Part shown: in pieces, positions 34,437 through 38,803 of the stretch
How positions within the stretch are numbered: position 1 is the stretch's first letter
How the letters are laid out: every line of letters begins with the position of its first letter
Assembly (NCBI RefSeq): GCF_003194605.1
Contig: NZ_QHKY01000001.1
Location: 744,001 to 808,000, forward strand
Direction of reading: 5' to 3'
Length of the DNA stretch: 64,000 nucleotides
Source of the DNA: Nocardioides gilvus
Lineage (GTDB): Bacteria > Actinomycetota > Actinomycetes > Propionibacteriales > Nocardioidaceae
Notes under the pieces: model-generated
What the model saw: only the letters and a program-made list of their open reading frames with translations
Databases searched by the model: none
What the model was told of the DNA's origin: nothing
Made by a program: the position numbers and the translations under genes

Positions 34437-35027
34437 TCACGAATTGAACTTTTGCTGGGCCTTTTCGAGGCCGTCAGTGATGAGAACCTCGATCGCATCG
34501 GCCGCGTCGACGAGCTGGATCGGGAGCTCCTTGCGCTCGTTCGTGGAGTAGTTCGACAGCACGAAGTCGGCCACGTCCTGGCGTCCGGACGGACGACCGA
34601 TGCCGACGCGTACGCGGTAGAAGTCACCGGTGCCCAACGACGAACGCATGGACCGCAGACCGTTGTGGCCGTTGTCGCCGCCGCCCTTCTTGAGCCGCAG
34701 TGTCGAGAAGTCGATGTCGAGCTCGTCGTGGACCGCGATGACGTGGTCGGCATCGACCCCGTAGAAGTTGGCCACAGCGGAGACCGGCCCCCCGCTGGTG
34801 TTCATGTAGCTCTTCGGACGGACCAGGACCACGCGGGGTCCGGGGTCCCCCGGAGAGCCCAGACGTCCTTCGACGACGTCCGCCCGACCGGTCTTGTGCG
34901 ACTTGAAGCGCGACCCCATGCGCTCAGCAAGCACGTCGATGACCATGTGACCCACGTTGTGCCGGTGCCCGGCGTACTCAGGGCCCGGGTTGCCCAGACC
35001 GACGACCAGCCACACATCAGCGCTCAT
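34437..35027 (-). CDS. pth: Peptidyl-tRNA hydrolase
   Basis: The 196-residue enzyme releases tRNA from stalled peptidyl-tRNA. It opens with [23 protein letters not shown], containing the catalytic His and the Asn10-equivalent. [11 protein letters not shown] and VHDELDIDF (catalytic Asp region) follow, then [12 protein letters not shown]. The ATG at 35027 gives the normal start; eleven further residues upstream are possible but atypical. It lies downstream of the L25 gene in the usual actinobacterial order, with hairpins between. Confidence 0.96.
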
Positions 35028-35064
35028 GGGGCAATTATCGACCACTCCCCACCCGGACATGACA

Positions 35065-35126: not shown

Positions 35127-35165
35127 AGTCCTGGAGGATCAGTCCTGGAGGATCAGTCCTCGAGG
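35127..35165 (-). repeat. 14-bp direct repeat at the 3' end of the L25 gene
   Basis: AGTCCTGGAGGATC occurs at 35127-35140 and 35141-35154, with a degenerate third copy AGTCCTCGAGG inside the final L25 codons. It looks like a local duplication of the gene's stop-codon end. Confidence 0.8.
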
Positions 35166-35779
35166 GTCTCCTCAGCGGCAGCAGCCTCGCTCGCGCCGGC
35201 GGGCGACTCAGCCAGCTCGGCCTCCAGGGCCTCAGCGGTCACCTGGGCGACGATGTTGACGATCAGGGACTCGGCGTCGACGTCCAGGGTCACACCCTTC
35301 GGCAGGACAAGGTCGCCCGCCAGGATCTGGGTGCCGGCGACAGCGGCGGTGACGTCGACCTCGATGGCGTCGGGCACGTGGGTGGCCTCGGCCTCGAGCT
35401 GAACGGTGGGGTTCTCGGTCACCACGAGGGTGTCGGGGCCCGCCTGGCCGACAACGTGGATCGGCACGTCGACGAAGACCTTCTCACCCTTGATGACGGC
35501 GATCAGGTCGACGTGCACGATGACGCGACGGATCGGGTCGACCTGGACCTCCTTGACCAGGGCGAGCTGCTCGGCGCCCTCGATGTCGAGGGTGAGCAGC
35601 GCGTTGGAGCCACCGTGACGCAGGGCCATCATCGTGGTGTGACCGGGCAGGGCCAGGTGCATCGGGTCCTTGCCGTGGCCGTAGACGACGGCAGGGATCT
35701 TGCCGGTGGCGCGCAGGCGACGCGAAGCGCCCTTGCCGAACTCGGTGCGCGTCTCGGTGGCCATCTTTTCAGCGGACAT
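35153..35779 (-). CDS. rplY: 50S ribosomal protein L25 (general stress protein Ctc type)
   Basis: The 208-residue protein is the long Ctc form of L25, with an N-terminal 5S rRNA-binding domain ([26 protein letters not shown]) and a C-terminal beta domain. The C-terminus is acidic ([17 protein letters not shown]), as in other Actinobacteria. It binds 5S rRNA in the large subunit and in some bacteria is stress induced. The gene lies upstream of pth. Its 5' leader is long and structured. Confidence 0.95.
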
Positions 35780-35808
35780 GTTCAGTCTCCAGGTGGGTTC
35801 GCAGCGGG

Positions 35809-35884
35809 GGCCGCGAAGCCCGCGGCCGTTCTGGTCGGCACCCCAGAGACGAAAGACGCCGCGCTGACATGGTCAGGCGCGGCG
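35809..35884 (-). promoter_or_regulatory. Structured 5' leader of the L25 gene
   Basis: On the transcribed (minus) strand two strong hairpins precede the L25 start. One at 35857-35884 has an 8-bp stem plus a 4-bp inner helix and one bulge. One at 35809-35827 is GGCCGCG-N5-CGCGGCC. A third short stem (GGAG-TTCGA-CTCC) lies further upstream near 35910. The first is followed by a U-rich run (TCTTTCGTCTC), which suggests an attenuator; autoregulation by L25 is a hypothesis. Confidence 0.45.
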
Positions 35885-36133
35885 AAAGCGAACCTGCCAC
35901 GTCGATCACGGAGTCGAACTCCCTCGCCGGGGCAACTTCCTCAGTCTAGGGGCGGAGGGGCGGCGGGGAAAATCGAGGGCTCGCAGGGGCCGAGGCGGGG
36001 ACTCATTCGGTCCACGGGTTCTGTCCATTATTTCTGTCCAAGATACAGGTCATTCGTCCCAGACTCTTGTCACAATGTGATTTAGACCTCAATGTGTAGG
36101 GGTGCAGCCCCCATCTACCTCCAGGAGCACCCA

Positions 36134-38203
36134 GTGAACGTGGCTCGCGTACGATTCGGCGCCCTCGTCGCAGGGCTCGGCCTCCTGGCTGTCGCCGGCG
36201 TGGTGCCCCTGGGGAGCGCCGCCTCCGGAGCGCCCGACCCCGCCGCGACCAGCGCCGTCTCCGCCGCCAAGCCGTACCTGGTCGGTCGGGGCATCGCCGA
36301 CGTCACCGGAGAGGTGGCAGAGGTCGGGATGATGGGTTACGCCGACCTCGGTCAGACCGGCGAAGGGCTGCACATGCGCCAGCGGGCACGCGCCTTCGTG
36401 ATCGCTGACCGGGCCAGCGGGGACAGGGTGGTGCACGTGACCGCCGACATCGGGATGATCTTCCAGAGCGTGCGCGACGAGGTGCTCGCCCAGCTGGACG
36501 CCCGTTTCGGCAAGCAGTACGGGGAGGCGAACGTCATGCTGACCGCCACCCACACCCATGCCGGCCCCGGTGGCTTCAGTCACCACAACCTCTACAACCT
36601 CACGACGCTCGGTCACCACGAAAAGACCTACCGCGCGACGGTGGACGGGATCGTCGAGGCCGTGGTGCGCGCCGAGCGTGACCTGGCGCCAGCCAGCCTC
36701 AGCCTGGCGCGTACGGAGCTCACCGATGCGAGCGCGAACCGGTCGCGGCTCGCCTTCGACCGCAACCCCGCGACAGACCGCGCGCACTTCCCGCAGGGCA
36801 CCGACACCAGCTCGACCACCCTCAAGGTGACCCGCGACGACGGCGAGGTCGGTGCGATCAACTGGTTCGCGGTGCACGCCACCTCGATGAGCACCGACAA
36901 CAAGCTGGTGAGCCCCGACAACAAGGGGTACGCCGGTTTCCACTGGGAGCACGACGACGAGGGCGTCGATCACCTGGAGGACTCCGACGACCCCGACTTC
37001 GTCGCCTCCTTCGCGCAGACCAACGCCGGCGACATGTCCCCCAACCTCGACCTCCTGCCGGGGACCGGACCCACCTCTGACCAGTTCGAGAACACCCGCA
37101 TCCTCGGCACCCGGATGGTCGACGCAGCACAACGGGCGACCCCCGAGCAGACCGTGCGCGGCGGGGTCGACTCGAAGATCGTCTACGTCGACCTGGCCGA
37201 CACCCTCGTCGATGGCCAGTTCACCCCTGACGGGCGCGACCAGCGGACCTGTTCGGCGGCCTTCGGCGCGGCCTTCGCGGCTGGCAGCACCGAGGACGGC
37301 GGCGGCGGACTGCCCATCTTCAAGGAGGGCAAGGACGGTGGCAACCCGGTCGTCGGAGTGATCGCCAAGGCCCTCTACACCGCCTCCCCCGCCCTGAAGG
37401 CCTGCCAGTCACCCAAGGAGATCCTGCTGCCGGTCGGCGCGCTCGACCTGGTCCAGCAGAAGGTCCCGGTGCAGCTGGTCCGGATCGGCGACCTCTACCT
37501 GATCGGCATGCCGGCCGAGGTCACGGTCGTCTCCGGCCTCCGCCTGCGCCGCGCGGTCGCCGACGTCGTCGGGGTCGACCTCGACCAGGTGCTGGTCCAG
37601 GGTTACGCAAACGCGTACGCGCACTACGTCACGACGCCGGAGGAGTACGACGCCGGGGAGTACGAAGGCGCGAGCACCCTCTTCGGCCGCAACGAGTTGC
37701 CCGCCTTCCAGCAGACCGTCCACGGTCTGGCCGCCCACATGGTCGCTGGCACCACACCCCCGCTGGGCGCGAAGGAGAGGGACCGGTCGGGCTCGCAGAT
37801 CCAGAGCCTGCAGGGCAAGGTCATCCTCGACAGCCCGCAGCTGTTCAAGTCGTACGGCGACGTGCTGACGTCACCGAAGGCGGCCTACGCGACGGGCGAT
37901 CAGGTCAAGGTCGACTTCTCCGGTGCCCATCCCAACAACGACCTGCGCACCGGCGGCACCTTCCTCGCCGTCGAGCGCAAGGTCGGATCGACGTGGCAGC
38001 GAATCGCCGACGACGGAGACTGGGAGACCAAGTTTCGGTGGAAGCGCGAGGGGATCAGTGCCTCGCGGGTCTCCGTGACCTGGGACGTGCCCTCCGGGAC
38101 CCCGACCGGCACCTACCGGATCCGCTACTTCGGCAACGCTCGCAACCTGTTGGGCTCGATCAGGTCGATCAACGGGACCAGCCCGTCGTTCGAGGTGCGG
38201 TGA
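36134..38203 (+). CDS. Secreted neutral/alkaline ceramidase
   Basis: The roughly 689-residue exported enzyme cleaves ceramides to sphingosine and fatty acid. A signal peptide covers about residues 1-35. The mature start GRGIADVTGEVAEVGMMGYA is typical. ATHTHAGPGG gives zinc ligands His140 and His142, and NAGDMSPN near residue 302 holds the catalytic Ser302. The C-terminal domain is an Ig-like fold (TYRIRYFGNARNLL). The GTG start follows AGGAG. The upstream region has TTCTGTCC twice (36019, 36032) and TCACA-A-TGTGA (36070-36080). A TetR gene follows three bases after the stop. Confidence 0.9.
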   Translation: MNVARVRFGALVAGLGLLAVAGVVPLGSAASGAPDPAATSAVSAAKPYLVGRGIADVTGEVAEVGMMGYADLGQTGEGLHMRQRARAFVIADRASGDRVVHVTADIGMIFQSVRDEVLAQLDARFGKQYGEANVMLTATHTHAGPGGFSHHNLYNLTTLGHHEKTYRATVDGIVEAVVRAERDLAPASLSLARTELTDASANRSRLAFDRNPATDRAHFPQGTDTSSTTLKVTRDDGEVGAINWFAVHATSMSTDNKLVSPDNKGYAGFHWEHDDEGVDHLEDSDDPDFVASFAQTNAGDMSPNLDLLPGTGPTSDQFENTRILGTRMVDAAQRATPEQTVRGGVDSKIVYVDLADTLVDGQFTPDGRDQRTCSAAFGAAFAAGSTEDGGGGLPIFKEGKDGGNPVVGVIAKALYTASPALKACQSPKEILLPVGALDLVQQKVPVQLVRIGDLYLIGMPAEVTVVSGLRLRRAVADVVGVDLDQVLVQGYANAYAHYVTTPEEYDAGEYEGASTLFGRNELPAFQQTVHGLAAHMVAGTTPPLGAKERDRSGSQIQSLQGKVILDSPQLFKSYGDVLTSPKAAYATGDQVKVDFSGAHPNNDLRTGGTFLAVERKVGSTWQRIADDGDWETKFRWKREGISASRVSVTWDVPSGTPTGTYRIRYFGNARNLLGSIRSINGTSPSFEVR

Positions 38204-38206
38204 CCC

Positions 38207-38803
38207 ATGGCTCGAATGTCACAGGTCGACCGCCGTCTCCAGCTGGTCGAGGCCGCCATCGTGGTGATGACCCGCGACGGCGTACGCAGCGCCACGACGC
38301 GTGCGATCGCTGGTGAGGCGGGCGCCTCGCTGAGCGTCTTCCACTACTGCTTCGACTCCAAGTCAGCTCTCCTGGGCGAAGTGGTCACCACGCTGGTCGA
38401 GCGCACGGCTGCCGGGTCGCGCGACGCGTTGGCGGCAGTGGAGCCCGACGGGGACCCGGTGCGCGCGAGCCTGATGGCCTTCTGGGGCCACGTGACCTCT
38501 CACCCGGACGAGCACCAGTTGACGTACGAGATCACCCAGCACTGCCTCCGTGACCCCGAGCTCGCGGAGGTGACTCGGGAGCAGTACGAACGCTACGTCG
38601 AGGTGATCGCCGAGCACCTGGCGCTGGGACTCCCCACCGCGGCGTCGACGGAACAGGTCCGCCTGCTCGCTCGCTACCTGGCGGTGATGATCGACGGGCT
38701 CACCCTCGACTGGCTCGTACGTCGCGACGACGCCGGCGCGCTGGCCGTGCTGGAGACCGTGATCACCCATGTCAACCACCTGCTGAGCGAGACCGTGGTC
38801 TGA
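38207..38803 (+). CDS. TetR family transcriptional regulator
   Basis: This is a 198-residue regulator with an N-terminal TetR helix-turn-helix (LVEAAIVVMTRDGVRSATTRAIAGEAGASLSVFHYCFDSK). The C-terminal ligand domain runs through LLARYLAVMIDGLTLDWLV, resembling the BetI-like subgroup. Start and stop are three bases apart from the ceramidase gene, so the two are likely cotranscribed. It may respond to ceramide-derived fatty acids or sphingoid bases; this is inferred only from position. Confidence 0.85.
   Translation: MARMSQVDRRLQLVEAAIVVMTRDGVRSATTRAIAGEAGASLSVFHYCFDSKSALLGEVVTTLVERTAAGSRDALAAVEPDGDPVRASLMAFWGHVTSHPDEHQLTYEITQHCLRDPELAEVTREQYERYVEVIAEHLALGLPTAASTEQVRLLARYLAVMIDGLTLDWLVRRDDAGALAVLETVITHVNHLLSETVV

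Follow-up and report, generated by a model that had tools for sequence, protein, structure and literature searches.

The L25 gene and its upstream region

The window analysed here, a stretch of 64,000 nucleotides from Nocardioides gilvus, carries on its minus strand (35153–35779) an open reading frame for a two-domain ribosomal protein L25 (bL25/Ctc) of 208 amino acids, of which residues 2–203 are spanned by the NCBIfam model NF004131 for L25/Ctc in a profile search (255 bits). The L25 motif has a single match in this genome. The pth gene lies behind the L25 gene, at 34437–35060, and the region between the L25 gene and prs (36092–38803, plus strand) holds, by its translations, a large exported-protein gene resembling neutral ceramidase and a TetR-like gene. 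A Shine-Dalgarno (SD) sequence, GGAG, is found 7 nt 5′ of the ATG (35787–35790, minus strand); in the leaders of relatives that we read, this motif is mostly AGGAG.

Our comparison set consisted of 101 leaders, taken from upstream of L25 in members of this genus and its family. These relatives allowed us to recognize a –10 element, TAGACT (35943–35948, minus strand), by the spacing of a TANNNT motif to the word TTGCC, which is exactly 7 nt in 94 of 95 Nocardioidaceae leaders; in the wider set, the distance from the –10 element to position C10 is 12–14 nt (158/162 leaders). Given this fixed spacing, the RNA most likely begins with the conserved leader element described below, with a transcript start predicted from sequence near 35936–35937. 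A –35-like element, GATTTTCCCCG, lies at 35964–35974 (minus strand), and its GATT begins 26 nt before the –10 element. GATT-like words stand 26 or 27 nt before the L25 –10 element in 84 cases among the relatives, a rigid spacing that exceeds the usual –35 distance. A simple scan of the window leader for promoters and terminators found neither.

The initial annotation had described two strong hairpins and a third, small one 5′ of L25, with a U-rich stretch after the distal one, and all of these are present on the minus strand. The distal hairpin, P4 (CGCCGCGC..GCGCGGCG, 35857–35884), emerged from both folding and leader comparison, and is followed by the U-rich stretch UCUUUCGUCUCU (35845–35856). 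The second strong hairpin (GGCCGCGG..CGCGGCC, 35809–35827) and the small one (35825–35839) are proximal to the gene. Overall, the leader is unusually stable: a 131-nt stretch folds at –60.2 kcal/mol (z = –3.04), with 2 of 200 dinucleotide shuffles equally stable, and for a 181-nt stretch (z = –2.66) just one shuffle in 200 was. In the predicted fold the proximal hairpins are included in a large hairpin (35785–35850, minus strand) that closes the ribosome-binding site (RBS), the SD being unpaired at 0.01, and one of 30 shuffles was equally closed.

This RBS-closing hairpin was not seen in two close leaders, where the SD was unpaired at 0.26 (L002) and 0.46 (L024); shuffling the downstream sequence left these values unchanged. 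For these two close relatives we therefore rejected RBS pairing of the window's kind as a conserved feature, and the output side at the RBS is the weakest link for this genome. Judging from these comparisons, the distal hairpin P4 looks conserved among relatives and the proximal hairpins look specific to this genome. That the hairpins represent ordinary G+C-rich folding without function is consistent with the lack, in the two close relatives, of the RBS-closing fold that holds the 35809–35839 hairpins. Against it, P4 is common to relatives and an element upstream of it covaries over the class; hence such an explanation is refuted for the leader as a whole, where it is very improbable, and stands for the proximal hairpins.

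A conserved element at the predicted 5′ end of the transcript

The most conserved part of the leader (35893–35936) is missed by the interval 35809–35884 on which the initial annotation was centered. It consists of a 44-nt core, GUUGCCCCGGCGAGG-stem-CCGUGAUCGACGUGGCAGG, on the minus strand, matched by covariance model R2 at G000:C1:779893-779936 (53 bits, E = 2.3e-8), and begins 158 nt before the L25 start codon, at the predicted mRNA 5′ end. The element consensus reads GUUGCCYCGGCGAGG, a variable stem, then CCGUNAUCGAC. In the Nocardioidaceae leaders the family form, located directly 5′ of the first-noted interval, is GUUGCCYCGGCGAGGG, a variable stem-loop and CCGUGAUCGAC. One copy was found by pattern in the organism's own genome, and the second R2 match in that genome falls inside an open frame without the L25 motif.

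Within Nocardioidaceae, the element occurs in 94 of the 101 leaders: 92 conform to the strict pattern and two more (L045 and L049) carry small changes. Contig ends truncate three of those remaining (L070, L080 and L108), and the last four (L071, L075, L077 and L079) are without the element or have a broken form of it. In L075 the leader is gone and a GTG stands almost directly after a –10-like TTACGAT, so that a leaderless mRNA is likely; in L079, the leader is also gone and the 5′ UTR is about 30 nt. In both, what seems to be the end of prs immediately precedes L25. These natural leader deletions could serve as controls.

To describe the element across the class we used two covariance models, R1, built from 61 Nocardioidaceae sequences, and R2, built from 80 sequences of many families. 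R1 matched 117 of the 296 class genomes. R2 (E ≤ 0.01) matched 182 of the 296, or 176 of the 267 good genomes, in 67 of 114 genera. Among the matches listed, the place of L25 was listed in the same genome for 106 of 150, the other 44 remaining outside the position count, and 105 of these 106 elements lie 64–180 nt upstream of L25 on the same strand. The single exception, with a contig end only 48 nt away, has a leader sequence of the same type. When 296 genomes were drawn from the whole phylum, R2 matched 31, of which 24 belong to the same class (own genome included); the seven matches outside the class were weak (E from 3e-4 to 0.01) and fell in open frames without the L25 motif. When R2 was run on 22 named L25 loci from many phyla plus the E. 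coli locus, only the three Nocardioides loci were matched.

R2 did not find the element in 114 of the 296 class genomes, though L25 itself is present in 290 of them, implying that the element is dispensable. We read the upstream regions of about a dozen L25 genomes lacking the element and saw no core in most, which suggests that the loss in those families is probably real; G162, G354 and others do show a divergent core, one that was missed by one model or fell outside the matches listed. Leader L091 likewise carries a variant missed by the pattern. The leader set leaves out L200, L203 and L207, whose R1 matches are not before L25; leaders without the element by pattern (L070, L071, L075, L077, L079, L080, L091, L217–L219, L223, L224, L229 and others); and L210, for which no start was found. 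L231 was left out of the fixed-register pair counts. Two families have a different arrangement before L25. In f18 (L223 and L224) there is no core element and a chain of hairpins with CCCCGC..GCGGGG units precedes the gene, apparently a different structured leader; in f19 (L217–L219, L248, L250 and L251), another conserved promoter/start region is found, TCCGGTACTGT..AG plus GGA..GAGCG..GCCATG, without the element.

RNAalifold applied to the first alignment returned one irregular hairpin. Its upper part is a stem, P3 (35919–35922 with 35910–35913, minus strand), closed by the loop UUCGA and identified by covariation. Below P3 is an internal loop, whose 5′ side, GCGAG (35923–35927), is near-invariant in the 80 diverse sequences and whose 3′ side, GUGAU (35905–35909; GUNAU in the class), is invariant there except at N. 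In fixed register, the third P3 pair is standard in 155 of 162 leaders (A-U in 124, U-A in 23, others in the rest) and the fourth in 136 of 162. When the register was slid as a control, the count dropped strongly for the third pair and less so for the fourth. Two P3 pairs showed 25 and 26 double changes in the 80 sequences. On the same sequences the covariation score of the whole structure was 0.298, vs 0.135 when shuffled and at most 0.109 when slid, and after background correction over 168 distinct rows the P3 pairs ranked 1, 2, 7 and 8 of 1081 column pairs.

The region below the internal loop is less clear. A helix P1′ showed no covariation there (ranks 27, 164 and 1039 of 1081); its own pairs averaged –4.71 kcal/mol vs –4.55 for swapped ones, the own pairing being better in 90 of 162 leaders, and the pairs below C10-G52 and G11-C51 differ in form between clades. 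P1′ is thus retained as a possible helix. An alternative three-way junction (GUUG/CGAC plus CCUC/GAGG) was rejected: in the 80 sequences its helices were 71.6% and 91.7% paired with zero double changes, and many clades break them. As for the internal loop, GCGAG equals the corresponding strand of E. coli 5S rRNA. We do not claim exact imitation of 5S loop E, since the organism's own 5S has GGUACU and GGGAGAG at that place and not GCGAG. A literature search for loop E found nothing, and we treat the likeness of the internal loop to loop E as a lead only.

In summary, a conserved, covarying element lies at the 5′ end of the predicted transcript, before L25 and nowhere else as far as checked. The initial annotation had proposed a separate, undescribed L25 leader, to be checked by covariation and by conservation in relatives; both were found, so the negative case, in which neither would be present, does not hold. 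Class-wide conservation, the L25-only position, covariation and the lack of an Rfam family all uphold that proposal. What did not survive is the role of the hairpins as the main conserved RNA, which belongs instead to the element directly upstream. The autoregulation that was also suggested is a proposal drawn from the position of the element and its exclusivity.

Candidate ligand and mode of action

Could the element be a constitutive 5′ structure, free of any ligand, that stabilizes the mRNA or helps initiation? Its extreme 5′ position and fixed spacing to the –10 element would agree with such a role. A mere stabilizer, in turn, would hardly need loop letters that are near-invariant class-wide beside a freely varying stem, and confinement to one gene would hardly be expected of it, so we regard this as improbable.

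Another reading is a cis-regulatory RNA responding to a ligand other than L25, which might be a metabolite, some other protein or 5S rRNA. Near-invariant unpaired stretches fit any ligand pocket, and the family name of L25/Ctc includes the designation general stress protein. Metabolite riboswitches usually serve several genes, unlike the present element, which among the matches listed stands before L25 only (105/106). Furthermore, in E. coli it is L25 that controls its own gene, as described in the L25 section of a 2024 review (PMC10931766), and on balance another ligand seems rather unlikely.

L25 as the ligand, and hence autoregulation, is suggested by the position of the element, by its exclusivity to L25 and by the E. 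coli precedent, in which L25 represses translation of its own mRNA via the leader (PMC10931766, section 3.8). We consider the element likely to be a leader RNA that regulates the L25 gene in cis, representing a new r-leader class typical of Actinomycetes, in which L25 most likely represses its own mRNA. In the mechanism that we propose, excess L25 lacking free 5S rRNA would bind the purine-rich internal loop (GCGAG/GUNAU) and keep the 5′ strand of the element within the local hairpin. In the absence of L25, that strand could instead base-pair with a more distant downstream segment. Switching between these folds would alter access to the RBS, such that bound L25 would lower translation. In the window, a segment predicted to be common to both alternative pairings is CUGGGGUG (35839–35846, minus strand), which could pair either with the 5′ strand UGCCCCGG (35927–35934) or, within 35839–35850, with the RBS. 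Other clades seem to employ other downstream parts, the action presumably being exerted mainly on translation.

The downstream pairing was clearest in what we call the Streptomyces-like clade (f20); this name, like Mycobacterium-like (f5 g31), is an inferred assignment. In the 27 Streptomyces-like leaders a second hairpin is followed by CCGRGURRC, to which the 5′ strand GUUGCUCGG is complementary, with all nine pairs standard in 27/27; the partner varies only opposite U, once jointly with the 5′ strand (L266). RNAalifold gave this long-range helix a probability of only about 0.2. A conserved CGCUCUUCGU just 3′ of the element is fully complementary over 10 bp to the RBS ACGAGGAGUG, and RBS pairing with a leader's own sequence beat swapped ones in 27/27 (mean z = –2.36). 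In the Mycobacterium-like leaders CACGGC pairs with GCCGUG, in 10 or 11 of 11 leaders per pair and with an RNAalifold probability of at least 0.97, and the upstream pairing of the RBS beat swapped sequences in 11/11 (mean z = –1.07). RBS pairing in Nocardioidaceae and in f21 hardly exceeded the chance level (mean z = –0.26 and +0.25, respectively). In the window, the energy of pairing between the segment and the SD was no better than expected at random (z = –0.07 and –0.25).

A universal downstream partner of the 5′ strand was rejected, because over 162 leaders z was below –1.64 in 34 and below –1 in 51, with a mean of –0.46, and the pairing was clear in some clades only. One individual case is L107, in which an altered 5′ strand has an altered, matching partner (z = –3.35).

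We also enforced each fold in nine hand-picked leaders and compared how far the RBS was unpaired with the local hairpin vs the long-range helix. The values were 0.00 vs 0.44 for the window, 0.00 vs 0.45 for L220, 0.00 vs 0.44 for L266, 0.02 vs 0.37 for L213 and 0.26 vs 0.58 for L281; in L154, L033, L037 and L107 the enforced long-range helix left the RBS unopened. With the local hairpin forced, the RBS of Streptomyces-like leaders was unpaired at 0.02, vs 0.36 with shuffled downstream sequence. Over 201 leaders, RBS opening (long-range minus local state) was +0.37 in the Streptomyces-like clade vs +0.10 when shuffled, +0.11 vs +0.06 in Nocardioidaceae, +0.14 vs +0.10 in the Mycobacterium-like clade and 0.00 in f21. 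Shuffling the downstream sequence made the alternative helix less stable in Nocardioidaceae (–0.7 kcal/mol natural vs 3.2 shuffled), a mixed set (–0.1 vs 2.9) and the Mycobacterium-like clade (0.8 vs 4.3); the Streptomyces-like clade and f21 showed no such advantage of the natural sequence.

According to these models, the predicted coupling to the RBS has good support in the Streptomyces-like clade alone, moderate support in the Mycobacterium-like clade and weak support elsewhere. A single class-wide switch would require the first 10–15 nt to choose between a local protein-binding hairpin, its loop partly imitating the 5S site, and a long-range helix, with L25 binding closing the RBS in Streptomyces-, Mycobacterium- and Nocardioides-like bacteria alike. 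We put this generalization forward as a tentative model that may well prove too broad.

The chief rival mode of action in Nocardioidaceae, which may also add to translational control, is transcription attenuation through P4. Here P4 and its U-rich tail would act as an intrinsic terminator whose formation is decided by the element, a scheme compatible with L25 as the ligand. Of 93 Nocardioidaceae leaders, 63 have a hairpin with a stem of at least 7 bp 3′ of the element; in most of them the stem is of the CGCCGCGC type found in P4, and its sequence varies with its pairing kept; in these 63 leaders, the 10 nt after the hairpin contain 3.16 T vs 1.55 expected from composition. L103 and L028 resemble ordinary terminators, and by eye one can see a possible switch, in which the element's CGGCGA would pair with UCGCCG of the P4 left arm. 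On the other side, the scan found no terminator in the window, meaning that its U-rich stretch falls short of the scan's terminator criterion, and the alignments of the Streptomyces-like, Mycobacterium-like and f21 leaders showed no P4 with such a tail. We judge attenuation to be doubtful.

Relation to known leaders and significance

At the gathering score, Rfam 15 gave no leader match in the window (only two tRNAs elsewhere), in L001 or in 20 diverse leader loci. The closest known relative in kind is RF03131, the L25 leader of Gammaproteobacteria (E. coli rplY), which shares with the present element an irregular hairpin in an L25 leader. RF03131 matched the E. coli locus (L232 1471-1496), which R2 did not, and it gave no match in 35700–36150 of the window even at E ≤ 10. 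The RF03131 element is 26 nt long and, as described in the L25 part of PMC10931766, adjoins a weak GAGA SD and precedes a short, one-domain L25, whereas that of the window lies at the predicted mRNA 5′ end, 158 nt from the start codon, and is accompanied by a normal SD and an L25 of two domains. According to the same part of that review, only the short, E. coli-type L25 goes with the control features known for this protein.

Leaders of the same kind and from the same phylum have been described for other genes. Eckert and Weinberg reported in 2020 actinobacterial r-leaders for L17 and L31, and in the portion of their article that deals with such leaders the table has none for L25, and an L25 leader is mentioned for Enterobacteria only (PMC7247131). 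The mycobacterial rpsO/S15 leader, in the same class, is similar in that it exerts autogenous translational control of a ribosomal protein (PMC8470358, leader description); it differs in gene, protein and fold (a pseudoknot) and was tested in vivo, whereas the L25 leader is a sequence-based prediction. The same 2021 paper describes the control of ribosomal proteins in Actinobacteria as almost unknown (PMC8470358). A look-up by term in RNA-seq papers on S. coelicolor and P. acnes (PMC4681348 and PMC3848588) returned no L25 leader, and a search of a collection of mostly open-access papers found no report of an actinobacterial one, an absence that is no proof. That we are dealing with an undescribed r-leader for two-domain L25, separate from the described families, is well supported.

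The leader probably lets the cell adjust the amount of L25. In a class that presumably includes Streptomyces and Mycobacterium, it is a strong candidate for such control where L25 is of the long, two-domain form (Ctc), and it provides a candidate RNA family for class-wide annotation, described by a covariance model and accompanied by a predicted start of transcription and by predictions at single-nucleotide level.
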